Shown here one piece after another: positions 9,884-23,036 of a stretch of DNA of 23,786 nt. The DNA comes from a virus: positions 1-23,786 of the IMG/VR virus record IMGVR_UViG_3300020473_000126; one strand, written 5' to 3'. The first letter of the stretch is position 1; each line of letters begins with the position of its first letter. The notes beneath the pieces are model-generated. The model was given only the letters and a program-made list of their open reading frames with translations. It was not told the DNA's origin and ran no database searches. The translations under genes were made by a program, and so were the position numbers.

Positions 9884-10429
9884 ATGTCATTTCTAAGCAA
9901 AGACTATAAACCGCTCCAGCCCTCCGGCGGAGGATACATGAAATTCGCGGAAGGTGAAAACCGTATTCGCATTTTAGCATCAGATAAAGATGACCCGCCA
10001 ACAGCTATAGTAGGTATGGAAGCATGGACAACTGATGCAGAAGGCAACCGCAAGCCGGTTAGATGCCAACCCGGTCAGAAACTAACTGGAGATTTTGAGG
10101 AAGACCCGAAGGAATTTTGGGCAATGTTAGTCTGGGACTACCAAGCTGATCAGGTGCGTATTCTGTCTATAACTCAGAAGGGCATCCAAGGTGAGATTCT
10201 GTCGCTGAAGCAAGACCCTGAGTGGGGCGACTTGCGGGAGTATGACTTGAGCATCATTAAAACCGGGAAGGGCTTGGAAACTCGGTACAACGTTGTCCCG
10301 AAACCCAAGAAGGAACTGCCGAAGGAAACGCTGCAAGTAATAGCTGACGCAGAAATTAATCTCATGGCGTTGTTCAGCGGTGACGATCCATTTGCCCCGA
10401 TCTCCGGTGCTAAGAAAGACCCATTTTGA
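9884..10429 (+). CDS. Phage single-stranded DNA-binding-like protein
   Basis: This 181-residue protein starts at ATG 9884 with GAAAGGA seven bases upstream. The N-terminal half (FAEGENRIRILASDKD; AIVGMEAWTTDAEGNRKPVR) and the middle (EFWAMLVWDYQADQVRILSI, then TQKGIQGEI) match the layout of a phage protein family commonly annotated as ssDNA-binding, and the C-terminus ends in an acidic/aromatic tail (SGDDPFAPIS...KKDPF) like the SSB partner-binding tail. It should coat ssDNA during replication and recombination and recruit partners by its tail. It is followed, with one base overlap, by the exonuclease gene, a common pairing. Family assigned from memory of its sequence pattern. Confidence 0.68.
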   Translation: MSFLSKDYKPLQPSGGGYMKFAEGENRIRILASDKDDPPTAIVGMEAWTTDAEGNRKPVRCQPGQKLTGDFEEDPKEFWAMLVWDYQADQVRILSITQKGIQGEILSLKQDPEWGDLREYDLSIIKTGKGLETRYNVVPKPKKELPKETLQVIADAEINLMALFSGDDPFAPISGAKKDPF

Positions 10430-11412
10430 TGGACGGTTTAACGAAAGGAATTAGCAACGCTGAGTACCACGGAAGTGACCTGCTTAGCAGAAGCACGGCA
10501 TCTGCCCTGCTCACCACTTCACCGCAAAAGGTGAGGTGGGAGCGGGACAACCCTCTCACTTATAAGGGAGTGCCGCTAATCATGGGCGGTTGCTTCCACA
10601 GCATGGTCTTAGAGCCTGAGTGCTTGGATGTGGAGTACGCAGTAAAGCCCACGGAAATAGACGGCAAGAGTCCATTGACCAAATACTACAAGGAGACCTT
10701 TGCGGAGATGCAAGCGGAGCGACCAGACGCTCAGTGGCTTAAAGCAGACGAGTGGAAGACTTGCTTGGGCATGGCGGAAGCAGTTCTGAGCAATCCTGTC
10801 TACACGCACTATGCGTCAGACGTGGAAGCTATTGCGGAAGGGACTGGGCATTTCAAGTATAACGGTGCGCATTGTAAAGTACGACCAGACTTGTACACGA
10901 GCGATGGCACGATCATTGATTTGAAGTCCACGCAAGACGCTAGTGAGGCTGGCTTCCGCAAAAGTGTACGCAACTTCGGGTATAACTTCCAAGCCTGTTG
11001 GTACTTAGAAGCTATGCGTGCGTTGGGATTACCCGCAAGGCAATTCATATTTGTCTGCGTGGAGAAAGCCGCGCCGTACCTCACCGCTACTTATACTTTA
11101 ACCGCGAGTGAGATAGACCGCCAAAAGCCAAGGATGCAGAAAGCGTGCGAAATCTGGGCTACCTGCATGGATACGGGCGTGTGGCCCGGTTACCCGGAAG
11201 AGGTGGTAACCTTGGATCTCAGCCGCTACGGCGACAACCACAAACTCTCCCTCAGTCAAGTCGCTGAGAAGTTTGGGGTAAGTCGTAGCTTCGTCTACAA
11301 GCTTATCGGAGAGTTTGAACTTGAGACATCAATGGTAGGGAATCAGCGGCGGGTAGACCTCACCGCATTCAGCAACGCCCTACGCAATCATGAAGGGAAA
11401 AAAGCAGCATGA
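10429..11412 (+). CDS. RecE-like PD-(D/E)XK exonuclease with C-terminal HTH fusion
   Basis: The start is ATG 10429 (TGATG junction with the SSB-like gene); TTG 10426 is an alternative. Length is 327 residues. Residues 50-65 carry LIMGGCFHSMVLEPE (His57), and residues 150-168 carry KVRPDLY then TIIDLKST (Asp154, Asp164, Lys166), followed by YNFQACWYLEA (Gln188, Tyr192). Together these are the RecE/PDDEXK_12 exonuclease motifs, for 5'-3' dsDNA resection ahead of annealing. Residues 273-318 form an extra HTH domain (LSLSQVAEKFGVSRSFVYKL, then VGNQRRVDLTAFSNAL) resembling an excisionase or Rep-like DNA-binding unit; this is not usual for the family. The gene lies between SSB-like and RusA-like genes, a recombination module. 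Confidence 0.82.
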   Translation: MDGLTKGISNAEYHGSDLLSRSTASALLTTSPQKVRWERDNPLTYKGVPLIMGGCFHSMVLEPECLDVEYAVKPTEIDGKSPLTKYYKETFAEMQAERPDAQWLKADEWKTCLGMAEAVLSNPVYTHYASDVEAIAEGTGHFKYNGAHCKVRPDLYTSDGTIIDLKSTQDASEAGFRKSVRNFGYNFQACWYLEAMRALGLPARQFIFVCVEKAAPYLTATYTLTASEIDRQKPRMQKACEIWATCMDTGVWPGYPEEVVTLDLSRYGDNHKLSLSQVAEKFGVSRSFVYKLIGEFELETSMVGNQRRVDLTAFSNALRNHEGKKAA

Positions 11413-11588: not shown

Positions 11589-11736
11589 TCTAGCACAGAC
11601 GCATCTTGACGAGGGCAACATTGAAGGGGCGCTCATCTGCCAGCAGGGGGCGTTACGGCAGGTTGCCGCACTGCTTGGCGGTGAGACTGAGACAACGGTA
11701 TTGGAAGGGGCTACGGTGGACTGCGAAGAAACATGA
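11551..11736 (+). CDS. Small acidic hypothetical protein (61 aa)
   Basis: MNELKQHIITALDLAQTHLD... is 61 residues, predicted mostly helical with an acidic C-terminus (GGETETTVLEGATVDCEET). The helical part (AQTHLDEGNIEGALICQQGA) has TPR-like residue spacing, but one unit is too short to call. It starts inside the second 17-bp repeat and ends with an ATGA overlap into the RusA-like gene, so it belongs to the recombination operon. Function unknown. Confidence 0.55.
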   Translation: MNELKQHIITALDLAQTHLDEGNIEGALICQQGALRQVAALLGGETETTVLEGATVDCEET

Positions 11737-12206
11737 AGTTCTGGATAGACTGCAACCCGCCCCGTAGCACTGCCCAATCGCAGAAGCGGATCGGAATGCG
11801 GGGGAAGATACCAATAATGTACACCACTGCAAAGGGCAGAGCACAGGAAGCTGATTTCATGAGTCTCTTGCACCCCTTTCGTCCCGAACAACCCTATGAC
11901 GGGGCGTTAAGGCTGGGCATCAGCTACTGCTTGCCCCTACTGAAGACTGAGAAGAAGGCAGTACGGGAGCAGGGTTGGACGGCACACAGCAAGCGCCCAG
12001 ACTGCGACAACATTTGCAAGATGTTCCAAGACACGATGGGCAAGCTGCTCTTCTGGACGGACGATTCACGAGTAGTGCATCTGACCTTCAGGAAGTACCG
12101 CAGTGAAAGTCCTGGTATCGGCGTAACGCTGGAGCATGTGACGGATGACGAGGTGGGAGATCCACGACAGTTTATACAAACTAACCAAGGAGGAAATTAT
12201 GACTGA
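11733..12206 (+). CDS. rusA: RusA-family Holliday junction resolvase
   Basis: This 157-residue protein overlaps the previous gene by four bases. Residues 87-111 contain KRPDCDNICKMFQDTMGKLL and FWTDDSRV, the RusA signature (D-x-DN-x2-K-x3-D, then a downstream Asp pair); Asp90, Asp92, Lys96 and Asp100 are the expected metal-binding/catalytic positions. RusA is a dimeric nuclease that cuts four-way junctions symmetrically, resolving branched phage DNA before packaging. Length fits the family (~120-160). It follows SSB-like and RecE-like genes, completing a recombination set. The last eight bases overlap the next gene, whose strong AAGGAGG site lies inside this one. Confidence 0.85.
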   Translation: MKFWIDCNPPRSTAQSQKRIGMRGKIPIMYTTAKGRAQEADFMSLLHPFRPEQPYDGALRLGISYCLPLLKTEKKAVREQGWTAHSKRPDCDNICKMFQDTMGKLLFWTDDSRVVHLTFRKYRSESPGIGVTLEHVTDDEVGDPRQFIQTNQGGNYD

Positions 12207-12564
12207 TGCAGACACACAGCAACGACAAGCAGGAATGCAAGCCGAAGGATGGGCAAGGGCTTTTCTTTACCGAATGCGCAAAGACAACAACAACCTGCGT
12301 GATGAACCCATAGATATGGATGCTTTTGATGATAAGATTGAATTTAGCGAGCAAGTGTTCTCTGCTAAACTTATTGCGGCGGGACTGGATGAAGTGGCAA
12401 TGAGCTTGAGGATGATTGCTGAGAGGATGGTGGACTCGTCCTCCTTGGATTCTTCTGCGTCAATGGTAGCTTCGTCACTGGATGGAATCGCTGAGAAGCT
12501 AAACACGGATAAAGGCGAAGATTATTCACTCAAGAAAGAACCGTTCAAGCCTACAAAGTATTAA
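12199..12564 (+). CDS. Hypothetical protein (121 aa)
   Basis: The start at ATG 12199 is set by AAGGAGG seven bases upstream; the longer in-frame opening at 12145 is inside rusA and has no site. The product is acidic, with two helical blocks (EFSEQVFSAKLIAAGLDEVA, MSLRMIAERM) and a Ser-rich stretch (VDSSSLDSSASMVASSLDGI). No domain is recognised. It lies between the resolvase and the replication genes, and a 78-bp gap follows. Function unknown. Confidence 0.65.
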   Translation: MTDADTQQRQAGMQAEGWARAFLYRMRKDNNNLRDEPIDMDAFDDKIEFSEQVFSAKLIAAGLDEVAMSLRMIAERMVDSSSLDSSASMVASSLDGIAEKLNTDKGEDYSLKKEPFKPTKY

Positions 12565-12642
12565 CTCTTAGGCTACACATAAAAACGTAACTGTATTCGT
12601 CTGCTTTCAGGTGGACGATGCTACCGCATGAAAGGAAATCAA

Positions 12643-12993
12643 ATGTATATAGAGATAGATAATCACAGGGTAAGACGGCACGACAAGATGAACTTCGCCA
12701 TTGAGCGGAAGAAGGGCAAGGAGTGGTCTCACGTAGGCTGGTATAGCTTCTTTGACGCTGCCTTGCTGGGACTCCTCCAGTACCTCATTGAAGCCAAGCT
12801 ACCGGCAAACGCAGAGGAGTGGGCAACCATTGCCGAAGAGCCTAGCAAGCACAAGAAGTGGAAGGAGTACTTGAAGAGATTCCAGGGCGATACTAAGAAG
12901 GTGAACGGGACTTTCCGTAGCGCCTTTGAAATGCTATTCGTCATTGACGTTATTCAAGAAGCTAAGGAAGAAATCATAGGGGCCGTAAAATGA
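12643..12993 (+). CDS. Conserved-looking phage hypothetical protein (116 aa)
   Basis: Start chosen at ATG 12643 because AAAGGA lies six bases before it; the ATG at 12628 lacks a site. The beginning (YIEIDNHRVRRHDKMNFAIE, RKKGKEWSHVGWYS) has the beta-strand pattern of small phage proteins that read RVRRxDxxNWxLEKRKxGKWxxVGYY, with a helical C-terminal half (LLGLLQYLIEA; WKEYLKRFQG). I recall that pattern from many phages but no function is known. It overlaps the initiator-like gene by four bases, so it is probably translated with the replication genes. Confidence 0.62.
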   Translation: MYIEIDNHRVRRHDKMNFAIERKKGKEWSHVGWYSFFDAALLGLLQYLIEAKLPANAEEWATIAEEPSKHKKWKEYLKRFQGDTKKVNGTFRSAFEMLFVIDVIQEAKEEIIGAVK

Positions 12994-13538
12994 AGAAGAA
13001 GGAGTTGCGTTTAAAATTTACCCCTGATGCATATGCTATTTTGACGGAGTATAGAGATCGCATGGATGCTGAAATGCGGGAAGTAAATTGGAGCAAAGTC
13101 GTAAACGAAATAGTCACGGAATATGATCGCTTAGTGCGCCGCTACGATGCCGCTGACGCGCCGCTTTCATGCCGCTCCTCGCGTACACGGGAGACTGTAG
13201 ACGAAAAATATAAAGAAAAAAAATGTATAAAAAAAGAAATTGCACCACCTCAAACCGCAAAAAGAGGAAAGCACTATCTCCCCAAGGACTTTGCCCCACC
13301 ACGATCCATAGCCAAGGAAGCTGGCGTAGACTATGAAGGCGCATTGGAGTGCTTCGCTGATTGGGCTAACTCTCAAGGCAAAAAATATACGGATTGGACT
13401 GCGTGCTTCCGCAATGCTTGCCGTTCATGGCTAAAGGAAAAGTTTCCCCATCTGAGACGCACGCCGATTCAACCTCATGGCAGTACCGAAATCCTCCGCA
13501 ATGAAGATATGAGCGACACCCGTCCGCCCCTCGTATGA
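12990..13538 (+). CDS. Replication initiator / helicase-loader-like protein
   Basis: This 182-residue protein begins in an ATGA overlap and ends in another with the dnaB-like gene. Residues 5-50 (ELRLKFTPDAYAILTEYRDR, NWSKVVNEIVTEY) resemble a ribbon- or winged-helix DNA-binding part. Residues 62-95 are a Lys/Glu-rich linker. Residues 98-152 (LPKDFAPPRS; ALECFADWANSQGKKYTDW; ACFRNACRSWLKE) match the C-terminal pattern of DnaT/phage O-type proteins (F-x-DWW-x-GKK-x-DW-x3-FRNW-type), which contact the replicative helicase. Being directly upstream of the helicase strengthens this. An iteron array and A/T tract lie inside its coding sequence, as in lambda gene O. Assignment is by pattern and context. 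Confidence 0.62.
   Translation: MKKKELRLKFTPDAYAILTEYRDRMDAEMREVNWSKVVNEIVTEYDRLVRRYDAADAPLSCRSSRTRETVDEKYKEKKCIKKEIAPPQTAKRGKHYLPKDFAPPRSIAKEAGVDYEGALECFADWANSQGKKYTDWTACFRNACRSWLKEKFPHLRRTPIQPHGSTEILRNEDMSDTRPPLV
13136..13176 (+). repeat. Iteron array: four GCCGCT units, 11-bp period
   Basis: GCCGCT occurs at 13138, 13149, 13160 and 13171, exactly 11 bp apart. Two 19-bp halves, 13136-13154 and 13158-13176, agree at 16 of 19 positions (GCGCCGCT-nnn-ATGCCGCT) with a 22-bp period. Since 11 is not a multiple of three, the encoded peptide is not repetitive, so the repeat is selected as DNA, not as protein. Confidence 0.85.
13136..13241. other. Candidate replication origin inside the initiator-like gene
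   Basis: The iteron array (13136-13176) is followed after ~26 bp by 13203-13241, a 39-base stretch with only four G and no C on the plus strand, a plausible duplex-unwinding element. It encodes the linker of the initiator-like protein and lies 290 bp before the helicase gene. The layout (iterons, then A/T tract, inside the initiator gene, then helicase) is that of lambda-type origins. Function is inferred. Confidence 0.6.
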
Positions 13539-14764
13539 GTGACCCTTCACTAGCAGAGACTGCGGTGCTCGCCGCGATGATGCGAGACGAGAGCAATCGT
13601 TCTTCGGCTCTTGCGATGGAGCACTTGACTGCTGACGACTTCACCAGCGATACTAACAAGAACATCTTTGAGGCATGTCGCAATCTGACCGCCCCGTACA
13701 ACGAAATTGACGTCGCCCTGGAATCGGGACTCAACGCATCCTGCATGGAGATCGCCAAGCAGCACGGCGGCGGTGACATCACCCGCTACATAGACCTCAT
13801 CATAGCAGAAAGACAAACCACCCAAGTGCGCGCCGCCCTCCTTAAAGCAACCGACTCCCTCAAGGAAGGTGACCCCCAAGAAGTAGCTTCCGCCTTCATA
13901 GCTTCTTGCTCAACAGCCCTTGCGTCCCGCCGCCATGCCGTCTCATGCGGCGTTGCGGTGAAAAGCGCACTTGCCGACTTCTTGGCGACCAACGAAGGTG
14001 GGTCAAGCGCACTACCCACAGGATTCAGTTCTCTAGATGAACTTCTTGGCGGTGGTCTGAAGGACGGAACGGTGTCAGTGCTCGCCGCCAGACCAGGAGT
14101 GGGTAAGTCCGCATTGGCTTTGTGGTTCACGCTCTCCGCAGCACGCCACGGGAAGAAGACCAGCTACGTCTCTCTTGAGATGTCAGCCACGGAGTGCGGC
14201 GGGAGATTGCTTACCGCCGCTTCGGGGCAGAGACGAGTGTACTCCAAAGGTGCATACACCCCGCAAAACATTTCTCACTTGCACGACACCGCCAACGCCA
14301 TGTCCTCGTGGCCCATCCGCTTCAAGGATGATGCAGAGGATTCGCTGGACAGCATCATAGCTTTTGTGCAGAGAGAGTCCGTGGAGCGTGGCGTGGATCT
14401 CGTAGTGGTGGACTACCTGCAACTGGTGAACGCACCCGGCGAGAGCGCCAACCAACGGGTTTCTTATGCGAGCCGTGCCTTCAAGAAGCTTTCAATGCAG
14501 CAAGACGTCCCCGTGATTGTGCTTTCTCAATTGAACAGGGCATTGGAAACCCAGGGCAGAGCACCCGCTCTCTCCGACTTGCGTGATAGCGGAAGCATTG
14601 AGCAGGATGCTGACATCGTGATGCTCCTTTCTCGCACCGAAGAATCCTCAGACAAGGACTCCATCTGCGTACATGTGGCGAAGAACCGCAACGGCCCCGG
14701 CGGGAAAGTGAACCTCACCTTTGAGAAAGCGTTTGGTCGTTTCTCTTCTCCACGCCTCAATTGA
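13535..14764 (+). CDS. dnaB: DnaB-type replicative DNA helicase
   Basis: This 409-residue protein has the full RecA-fold helicase core. Walker A is RPGVGKS at 186-192; the next strand is KTSYVSLEMSATE (210-220); Walker B is VVVDYLQL at 290-297; SQLNRALE is at 331-338, SDLRDSGSIEQDAD at 347-360, and HVAKNRNGPGG at 380-390, which includes the Arg-finger region. The N-terminal ~130 residues are a shortened DnaB N-domain (ETAVLAAMMRDE; NIFEACRNL), about 30-60 residues shorter than bacterial DnaB. It is a hexameric 5'-3' helicase at the phage fork. It overlaps the loader-like gene by four bases and is the last gene of the plus-strand replication operon. Strong identification. Confidence 0.93.
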   Translation: MSDPSLAETAVLAAMMRDESNRSSALAMEHLTADDFTSDTNKNIFEACRNLTAPYNEIDVALESGLNASCMEIAKQHGGGDITRYIDLIIAERQTTQVRAALLKATDSLKEGDPQEVASAFIASCSTALASRRHAVSCGVAVKSALADFLATNEGGSSALPTGFSSLDELLGGGLKDGTVSVLAARPGVGKSALALWFTLSAARHGKKTSYVSLEMSATECGGRLLTAASGQRRVYSKGAYTPQNISHLHDTANAMSSWPIRFKDDAEDSLDSIIAFVQRESVERGVDLVVVDYLQLVNAPGESANQRVSYASRAFKKLSMQQDVPVIVLSQLNRALETQGRAPALSDLRDSGSIEQDADIVMLLSRTEESSDKDSICVHVAKNRNGPGGKVNLTFEKAFGRFSSPRLN

Positions 14765-14772
14765 CTACATCC

Positions 14773-14808
14773 AGCCTCGTAAAGATACGAGAATGGTCAT
14801 ACGAGGCT
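14773..14808 (+). other. Mutually exclusive hairpins downstream of dnaB
   Basis: AGCCTCGTA (14773-14781) can pair perfectly with TACGAGGCT (14800-14808), a 9-bp stem, or its CTCGTA part can pair with TACGAG (14786-14791) in a tight 4-base-loop hairpin. No strong T-run follows. It may be a weak terminator, a 3'-end structure, or a switch. Confidence 0.6.
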
Positions 14809-14846
14809 TATAGGCATACCAAATAAGCGTTTTGATTGTTTCTGAG

Positions 14847-14892
14847 ACAGGATACCTATGTCACTAGGTCAGACACCCCTTCAGCGTCCTGT
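14847..14892 (+). other. Nested stem-loop structure in the convergent gap
   Basis: ACAGGA (14847-14852) pairs with TCCTGT (14887-14892), enclosing ACCTA (14854-14858) paired with TAGGT (14865-14869). The structure is visible on both strands. A 27-codon ORF with an AGGA site (ATG 14858, stop 14941) overlaps it; that ORF is weak. Confidence 0.45.
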
Positions 14893-14922
14893 ATGGGCTT
14901 GCGAGGTTTCTTCCTTACTTTA

Positions 14923-14959
14923 CATAGTACATAGCACATAGTGGCATAGTACTAAGTAC
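14923..14959. repeat. CATAG short tandem repeat and GTACT-A-AGTAC palindrome
   Basis: CATAG occurs at 14923, 14930, 14937 and 14945 (period 7, 7, 8), followed by an 11-bp palindrome at 14949-14959. Together they lie between the two convergent operons. Confidence 0.7.
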
Positions 14960-14984
14960 AAAGCACCAAGATGAACCTCCCCAC

Positions 14985-15025
14985 AAAAAAAAGCGGGGCA
15001 AGGATCACGACTTCCTCACCCCGCT
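14985..15025 (-). terminator. Rho-independent terminator of the minus-strand cluster
   Basis: Read on the minus strand, AGCGGGG (15025-15019) pairs with CCCCGCT (14998-14992), with an inner AGGA/TCCT pairing, followed by a run of T residues (plus-strand A run 14985-14992). The loop carries GTCGTGA (plus-strand TCACGAC, 15005-15011), and another copy lies just upstream at 15030-15036. It closes the minus-strand genes starting from 19603. Confidence 0.88.
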
Positions 15026-15049
15026 AGGGTCACGACTGAAACAAAAGAT

Positions 15050-15283
15050 CTAAAGCTCCGGCAACTCCTCCACCTCGCGTCCGCAGCACGTCTCGTGCTC
15101 CTCTACCGATACTAAAAAGTCTTCCGCACCTGTCACAGTGTCCGTGTAAGTTCCGCGATGGTCAGGATAATCCTCAAGCAAGTCCGTGGCGTGAAAGCCG
15201 GAACGAGCCATGACCCGGAAGGTAGTGCTCTTCCACTCCATCACCTCCACGTAGTACTCTTCCATGCCGTCAACGGACTCCAT
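15050..15283 (-). CDS. Small acidic hypothetical protein (77 aa)
   Basis: MESVDGMEEYYVEVMEWKST begins one base after the upstream stop; a second in-frame Met at 15265 is possible. The GGAG serving it lies inside the last codons of the upstream gene. The product is acidic with beta-strand-like N-terminus and HETCCGRE near the C-terminus. It is the last gene of the minus-strand cluster, 25 bp before the terminator. Family not recognised. Confidence 0.6.
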   Translation of the reverse strand: MESVDGMEEYYVEVMEWKSTTFRVMARSGFHATDLLEDYPDHRGTYTDTVTGAEDFLVSVEEHETCCGREVEELPEL

Positions 15284-21403: not shown

Positions 21404-21582
21404 ACGTAGGGGAGTTGATTGGCATGTTGTCCTCTTATCCCGAAGAGACTCCCGTGGCTACCTTGGAGGATTGGGGTTGTGGGTACGTATTGCGTGAGTT
21501 GGACGGAATTACGGACACCAGTGAGTTTGAGGAGGATCGCAACCCTCACGTGGTAGTTTTGTCCACGGAGGTTGGGCAGTGA
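21400..21582 (+). CDS. Small acidic hypothetical protein (60 aa)
   Basis: Starts with GTG 21400 overlapping the RHH stop and preceded by GGAGGGTGAGG. The sequence MNVGELIGMLSSYPEETPVA, then ...DWGCGYVLRELDGIT..., fits a short phage orphan pattern of the type LIxxLxxYPPDTPVxxxD..., function unknown. It overlaps the methyltransferase start by four bases. Confidence 0.62.
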   Translation: MNVGELIGMLSSYPEETPVATLEDWGCGYVLRELDGITDTSEFEEDRNPHVVVLSTEVGQ

Positions 21583-23036
21583 AGTTCATCAGTTTATTTG
21601 CCGGAGTGGGAGGATTTGACGAGGGTATGCGCAGGGCGGGTCACGAGTGTGTGGCTATGGTGGAGTGGGACAAGTCCGCTGCTGGTGTATTGGCGTATCG
21701 CTACCCTGGCATACCGTTGTATTGCGACGTGAGTAAAGTTGAGGTGGATGACCTGCCCGACTGTGATTTTTTAACATATGGATTCCCGTGTCAGGATTTG
21801 AGTGTAGCGGGAAAAAGGAAAGGATTGGAAGGTGAGCGAAGTGGATTGTTCTTTGAAGCGTGCAGAATCATCAAAGGGCTTGCAGAGCGAGCTATTTGGG
21901 GAGGAGGAGTTACTGGAGGTCGGTTCATCGCAGTGGCAGAGAATGTCTGCGGACTGCTCTCTGCGGATGATGGTTATGCACTTGCGGGGTGCATCCGAGA
22001 GTTACAGCAGATCGGGGCTGGTGAAATCGGATGGACGGTATTGGACTCGCAATACTTCGGATTGGCGCAAAGGCGGAAGCGCGTGTTCATTGTCTCAGAT
22101 TTTGGAGGTGAATCCTGCGACCAAATACTTGCTATCACGGAAAGCTTGCATGGGAATCCTGCGCCGGAGCGAGAAGCGGGGAAAGGTGCTCCCGCCGGTG
22201 TTGGACAGGGCTTTACGCCAAGTAGCTATGGCGGATACGAGCGAGGGTGTGGAACGCTCCGAAGCGAGGGAGGAGACATAGGAGGTGGTAGTGAGACTTT
22301 GGCGGTAACTCAAGGGGCAGACGTCTACAACGGCGAGGTAACGGGTGACACGGCTGCGACAGTGACCTCTGCCACGGGGATAGCGAATGCGAGTGGCCCG
22401 AAGGTGGTAGAAGGGCCATGCTATTCGCACCACGGGCAGGACTCAAGGGTTAAGGATTGTGGGGAAACTTCCCCTACTTTGCACAGCAAGATGGACAACG
22501 TTTCAGACGTACCGCTAATACGTGATGCGAGTGGGCCGAAGGTGGTAGGCTGGAATGGTGACGTCACCCCAAAATCCTCCGAAGACGTGAGCGTGACTTT
22601 GCGTAGCCAGCAGGGTGGGGAAGGAGTTGGCGTGGCGCACGAAACGGGACAAGGGTATTGGCAGGAGCATCCCCATGCCGGAACACTACGGGCAGAAGGA
22701 GAGAACAGACCCTCTCGCCCAAGTCACGTTATTTGCGAATCCCCGCAGATGAACCCCACCTTGGACATCGTGGATGGTGAGACCGTAGAAGGCATGTGCG
22801 AGATGCGTGGAGCTACTATGGTGAGGCGTTTGACCCCAATGGAGTGTGAACGCTTGCAAGGCTTTGAAGACGGCTGGACGAGCAAGCGCATGGAGTTGGA
22901 GCTAGAAGGCAACGAGTGGAAGCCCACGGGCAAGGTGGAAGAGCAGAAGGACGGCCCACGTTACCGCCAAATGGGCAATGCGGTGAGCGTACCCGTAGCT
23001 GAGTACATTGGGCGCAGAATGGCGGAAGCTGGATGA
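21579..23036 (+). CDS. C5-cytosine DNA methyltransferase
   Basis: This 485-residue protein has all main C5-MTase motifs: I FAGVGGF (7-13), IV GFPCQDLS (68-75, catalytic Cys71), VI ENV (121-123), VIII QRRKRVF (164-170), IX RRLTPMECERLQGF (416-429) and X RQMGNAVSVPV (463-473). It transfers a methyl group from S-adenosylmethionine to cytosine C5. The segment between VIII and IX (171-415) is about 245 residues, long for a target-recognition domain, and holds repeated TLRS/TLRA blocks and two ASGPKVV copies 46 residues apart. The target sequence cannot be read. In phage it usually protects phage DNA from restriction. ATGA overlaps on both sides. Confidence 0.92.
   Translation: MKFISLFAGVGGFDEGMRRAGHECVAMVEWDKSAAGVLAYRYPGIPLYCDVSKVEVDDLPDCDFLTYGFPCQDLSVAGKRKGLEGERSGLFFEACRIIKGLAERAIWGGGVTGGRFIAVAENVCGLLSADDGYALAGCIRELQQIGAGEIGWTVLDSQYFGLAQRRKRVFIVSDFGGESCDQILAITESLHGNPAPEREAGKGAPAGVGQGFTPSSYGGYERGCGTLRSEGGDIGGGSETLAVTQGADVYNGEVTGDTAATVTSATGIANASGPKVVEGPCYSHHGQDSRVKDCGETSPTLHSKMDNVSDVPLIRDASGPKVVGWNGDVTPKSSEDVSVTLRSQQGGEGVGVAHETGQGYWQEHPHAGTLRAEGENRPSRPSHVICESPQMNPTLDIVDGETVEGMCEMRGATMVRRLTPMECERLQGFEDGWTSKRMELELEGNEWKPTGKVEEQKDGPRYRQMGNAVSVPVAEYIGRRMAEAG
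22387..22548 (+). repeat. 24-bp near-exact repeat in the MTase recognition region
   Basis: 22387-22410 and 22525-22548 are identical at 23 of 24 bases and encode ASGPKVV in the same frame, 138 bp (46 residues) apart. Confidence 0.85.

Follow-up and report, generated by a model that had tools for sequence, protein, structure and literature searches.

In bacteriophage lambda, as in the Stx phages, the replication origin occupies the central part of the initiator gene, where tandem repeats that bind the initiator precede an A/T-rich unwinding tract; in lambda, the two iterons closest to this tract are the required ones (PMC7466680). In SPP1, oriL is located in gene 38, where direct repeats and an A/T-rich unwinding element are found within the initiator gene, and this phage encodes a DnaB-family helicase, an exonuclease, a resolvase and a single-strand DNA binding protein (SSB) (PMC6316719). 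The RepA_N plasmid pSK41 carries four Rep boxes in the centre of rep, which code for a dispensable linker; the linker joins an N-domain that binds DNA to a C-domain in contact with the replication machinery (PMC5703833). On Vibrio chromosome II, RctB is the initiator, and the iterons to which it binds are short 12-mers (PMC5395669).

The DNA analysed in this work (the window) is a linear virus sequence of 23,786 bases, the full length of its record, and is probably a fragment of a larger genome. It contains an array of four GCCGCT units and an A-rich tract inside an initiator-like gene, and we consider it likely that these two elements form a phage replication origin within its own initiator gene, from which the DnaB encoded by the next gene is loaded. 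By analogy with lambda ori, SPP1 oriL and the pSK41 origin, the site most likely serves for initiator binding, opening of the tract and loading of DnaB. The overall arrangement is known; the novelty lies in the repeat, in its spacing of 11 bases and in the small initiator protein.

An earlier note on this sequence described the origin as lambda-like, a term that is adequate for the architecture (repeats and an unstable tract, inside the gene before DnaB), but not for a match to lambda O, the form of the iterons or the origin of the helicase. Lambda iterons are imperfect palindromes of about 18 bp, whereas here the cores have 6 bases, are placed 11 bp apart as direct repeats and show no dyad. 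Lambda relies on a separate loader, P, for host DnaB; here the phage's own DnaB is the product of the next gene and there is no loader gene between. Also, while lambda requires the iterons nearest the tract, two relatives of the window (L002 and L027) have lost the unit beside the A-rich tract, a point against the reading as an origin. The initiator gave no Pfam match to the lambda O family at E-values up to 1, although remote homology is possible. The array and its initiator are not members of the lambda O/ori family, and the likeness is one of architecture only.

As in SPP1, a DnaB helicase, an exonuclease, a resolvase and an SSB are encoded here by the phage itself; SPP1, however, encodes its loader separately, as gp39, and has oriR as a second origin, whereas one array is present in this fragment. 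No sequence relation was found between the initiator-like protein and a known initiator such as SPP1 gp38. The presence of four repeats in the linker-coding middle of the initiator gene is shared with pSK41, but RepA_N proteins have a winged-helix N-domain and a C-domain in contact with primase, and the initiator-like protein has no Pfam match to RepA_N, with remote homology possible in this case as well. Vibrio chromosome II is a chromosomal system with an initiator unrelated to the 182-aa protein, and its origin sits outside the initiator gene.

Genomic context

The features of the locus are given in Table 1. The initiator-like protein is composed of a short N-terminal domain, a variable linker and a C-terminal domain predicted to be DnaT-like, and its gene overlaps the DnaB gene by 4 bases. 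As previously described, the array and, after it, the unstable A/T-rich tract are located in the linker of a two-domain gene directly 5' of the DnaB gene. Two small genes (12145-12993) separate rusA from the initiator gene; they have matches in L002. In L004 and L027, which have no such matches, rusA is directly followed by the initiator gene, so that these small genes are variable insertions in the cassette.

Table 1. Coordinates of the features in the window and the data on which each is based.
Feature	Coordinates	Strand	Basis
SSB-like gene, replication/recombination cassette	9884..10429	+	PHROG single strand DNA binding protein, 1.8e-10
Exonuclease VIII-like gene, same cassette	10426..11412	+	PHROG, 2.8e-68
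RusA-type Holliday junction resolvase, same cassette	11733..12206	+	Pfam RusA, 1.1e-21
Initiator/helicase-loader-like gene, 182 aa	12990..13538	+	ORF; relatives L002, L004, L027, L003
Iteron array, GCCGCT x4, period 11 bp	13136..13176	+	Register kept in relatives
Conserved stretch ACGGGAGACTGTAGAC between array and A-rich tract	13187..13202	+	Near-identical codon for codon in 5 sequences
A-rich C-free tract, candidate DNA unwinding element	13203..13242	+	Stability ranking, synonymous constraint
DnaB-type replicative helicase gene	13535..14764	+	Pfam DnaB_C 1.9e-62, DnaB N-terminal 3.6e-07; PHROG DnaB-like helicase 5.9e-73

The GCCGCT array

The four GCCGCT units start at 13138, 13149, 13160 and 13171, exactly 11 bp apart, and read GCCGCTACGAT GCCGCTGACGC GCCGCTTTCAT GCCGCTCCTCG when written in 11-bp units, with two 19-base halves (13136-13154 and 13158-13176) that match at 16 of 19 positions (84%), as originally noticed. 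No other run of at least four identical hexamers at a fixed spacing of 7-40 bp occurs in the window. Since 11 is not divisible by 3, each unit falls in a different codon phase and is translated differently (R-R, A-A, A-P-L and C-R-S), and therefore the repeat is not produced by the protein, in agreement with the initial reasoning on the codon frame. One could suppose that the whole DNA pattern is a by-product of a conserved linker protein (RRY-AA-AP, then KEKK-IKKE) that forces similar codons, which the similarity of the linker peptides among close relatives and the conserved lysine-rich stretch partly encoded by the tract would favour. Against this, when the gene was shuffled 5000 times with synonymous codons, no shuffle yielded such a four-copy run, and 18 reached three copies.

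Pairwise comparison of the units showed that the core positions are all identical (36/36), while the spacers agree at 4 of 30 positions. Identical cores with unrelated spacers are the pattern of binding sites and not that of a fresh tandem duplication. A functionless minisatellite generated by slippage in a tolerant linker would explain the resemblance of the two halves, and linkers do tolerate repeats, but it is hardly credible in view of these spacers and of the register being kept in relatives that share 60-72% protein identity.

Those relatives belong to a group of close homologues of the initiator retrieved from IMG/VR (L002, L003, L004 and L027). Conservation of the array among homologues had been proposed in the earlier note as a check, and three of them do hold the register in spite of the out-of-codon period: L004 (GCCACTTCCAT GCCACTCCTGC GCCACTTTCTG GCCTCTCCTCA), L002 (GCCGCTACCAT GCCGCTACCGC GCCGCCACCCC) and L027 (GCCGCCATCAT GCCGCTACCGC GCCACCCCCCC), the last two without the fourth unit. 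The L003 contig ends inside the array (L003:1, third unit), as if the assembly had been broken at the repeat. At least three GCCRCY units at exact 11-bp spacing are present in L002, L004 and L027, an outcome reached in 0.1-0.4% of trials when the codons of the same proteins were resampled. Three such units at 11 bp were found once in each of the three relative records spanning the site, and no other occurrence was detected in 908 kb of fetched loci. The GCCGCT pair pattern was present in 18 viral contigs and, except for the relative L005, no array-plus-tract was seen in the sequence stretch examined.

Between the window and L004, 4 of the 24 core positions differ, and all four differences are at core position 4, one per unit, so that L004 has three GCCACT cores and one GCCTCT. 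The chance of such a distribution is 6/10626, and the codon phases of the units are different. At least two of these concerted changes are non-synonymous (R to H, A to T), which also argues against a by-product of the protein.

The same note regarded homologues without the array as evidence against an origin, and on this point the results went both ways, with L002, L004 and L027 keeping the array and more distant homologues (L113-L117, about 50% identity in the C-terminal domain) having none. The linker of L113-L117 showed no direct-repeat array, just a weaker A/T segment, whose instability ranked first in L113, second in L114 and L115, third in L117 and outside the top six in L116. The array is therefore confined to a single clade, formed by the window, L002, L004 and L027.

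The A-rich tract

A 39-base stretch with four G and no C had been reported next to the array. This corresponds to 13203-13241, but the full C-free run has 40 nt (13203-13242) and five G. According to nearest-neighbour energies, every other 40-mer of the window is more stable than these 40 bases, and the homologous A-rich tract is likewise the least stable 40-mer in L002, L004, L027 and L006. A search of 2.9 million viral contigs for the core pattern of the tract gave hits in three, each of them a relative.

Synonymous constraint peaks at the tract, where synonymous change is nearly absent. Identical codons are used at 129 of 139 shared residues (93%) in aa 67-83, compared with 573 of 913 (63%) outside aa 50-83, and a codon identity as high as that observed in aa 67-83 was obtained in 6 of 20000 column permutations. 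Lysine is encoded by 20 AAA and a single AAG in the tract, while the ratio elsewhere in these genes is 19:31, and the observed A+T richness was equalled by 10 of 20000 codon-resampled tracts. Neither this A+T richness nor the almost exclusive use of AAA in the tract only is accounted for by conservation of the linker protein, and we regard a by-product as very unlikely. The A-rich tract is a candidate unwinding element, as predicted from its sequence. Taken with the kept register and the concerted change at one core position, the synonymous constraint supports selection on array and tract at the DNA level.

The initiator-like protein and its possible action

A search of 50,697 phage records gave no match to the initiator-like protein, and no relatives of it were found in cultured phages or in GTDB contigs. 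Its direct family match is weak ('replication initiation protein', phrog_1032, best E 0.005, all four members), and this weak assignment counts against the origin reading. The distant homologues L113-L117, which were reached through the exonuclease gene, share the C-terminal domain with 46-51% identity; their matches were to two families, 'primosomal protein' (phrog_3992, with 1.4e-5 as the best value) and 'replication initiation protein'. The full-length structural model is poor (mean pLDDT 57.5), which likewise counts against the origin reading. The model of the C-terminal domain, with a pLDDT of about 70, aligned with 4ou6 (DnaT84-153 with single-stranded DNA) over 65 residues with a Z of 4.0 and an rmsd of 3.5, although such a Z can arise from a common arrangement, and in this model the domain looks DnaT-like.

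Regarding the N-terminal domain, the model has two helices after a short N-terminal segment, which is drawn as a helix and not as a strand, and searches of Pfam, PDB sequences and Foldseek gave nothing significant for a ribbon-helix-helix identity. Distant homologues had sub-threshold matches to 'Arc-like repressor' (E 0.15, L113) and 'transcriptional repressor' (E 0.065), and these, together with the sequence layout, suggest that this could be a ribbon-helix-helix domain. The N-domain of the window (12990-13135), with 24% identity to that of L004, has diverged from its relatives far more than other parts of the protein and is missing 14 residues; the divergence stops just before the array, which could be the mark of a domain replacement. 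No simple co-variation of N-domain and core was seen, given that the window has the same core as L002 (GCCGCT), yet L004, with GCCACT, is closer to L002 in its N-domain, and this too counts against the origin reading.

The same layout and weak repressor matches would also fit an operator: bound to the array, the initiator-like protein, or else some other phage repressor, would control its own gene and dnaB, with the tract being a promoter or transcript feature and replication starting elsewhere. Autoregulation is common among initiators. However, the site is in mid-gene and not at the gene start, and no promoter-like pair was found at the tract, the three detected in 12500-15100 all being elsewhere and near the number expected by chance. 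In addition, an operator needs no least-stable DNA with frozen synonymous sites beside it, and we consider it improbable as the function of this site.

If the array is an origin, as we favour, several copies of the 182-aa gene product would sit on the GCCGCT iterons; as the four iterons follow each other at intervals of one helical turn, the bound copies would all lie on one face of the DNA. We infer that the array is read by the initiator-like protein, probably with its N-terminal domain. The resulting nucleoprotein complex could then strain and open the adjoining A-rich tract, and the exposed single strand would be held by the DnaT-like C-terminal domain, which may also load the phage DnaB encoded by the next gene, so that replication would start at the array. 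If this is true, an initiator and loader combined in one protein with one-turn iterons would be a small system for biochemistry.

Repeats at other DnaB loci

Distant DnaB loci were clustered at 60%, resulting in 28 independent clusters, and the 1 kb upstream of each dnaB was scanned along with 230 control blocks. Evenly spaced repeats, mostly with periods of 11-12 bp, were present upstream of dnaB in 9 of the 28 clusters versus 6 of the 230 control blocks (p 2e-6). Periods of 12 bp may stem from repeated codons, as with GAAGAAG in L044 and CCCTCAC in L048, and therefore only the out-of-phase cases are free of doubt; periods that are not a multiple of 3 were found in 4 of 28 clusters and 1 of 230 blocks (p 5e-4). 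Repeats located in the gene before dnaB were AAGCAAA in L034 and AACGCAA in L055 (both 11 bp), GAACAAA in L103 (11 bp, four copies), AATTCCG in L031 (11/12 bp, six copies) and TACGCAA in L082 (12 bp, at least eight copies). The cores of these five arrays are unrelated. The related loci L047 and L055 have different cores beside nearly identical downstream sequence.

These data are compatible with a compact class of origins, in which a small ribbon-helix-helix-type initiator with a DnaT-like domain reads 11-bp iterons and loads its own DnaB without a separate loader, arrays of 11-12 bp before dnaB being a common but unrecorded format in uncultivated phages, a generalisation that we put forward only tentatively and hold to be rather doubtful. 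The locus described here provides a concrete, testable origin for a phage group with no cultured relative found in this work, and suggests that origins can be read from sequence by looking, in the gene that precedes dnaB, for repeats out of codon phase. Given the arrays in 9 of the 28 unrelated clusters of helicases, such a scan could locate the origins of many phages for which only metagenomic sequence exists.

Other features of the window

GC skew had been suggested as a test for the origin, but in this linear 23.8-kb fragment it tracks the coding strand (mean +0.15 for genes on the plus strand and -0.16 for those on the minus strand), and thus speaks neither for nor against an origin here. 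Rfam and tRNA scans gave no matches. Between the convergent genes after dnaB (14761-15040) there is a window-only insertion with three ACATAG copies at 7-bp spacing. This repeat, at 14922, was considered as an origin, but it is absent from L002, L003 and L027 and is therefore no origin candidate by conservation. The same interval holds a conserved strong hairpin with a T-run on the minus strand, which resembles a terminator. A C-5 cytosine DNA methyltransferase gene (21579-23036; Pfam DNA_methylase, 4.3e-54) is common to the window and L003/L006.
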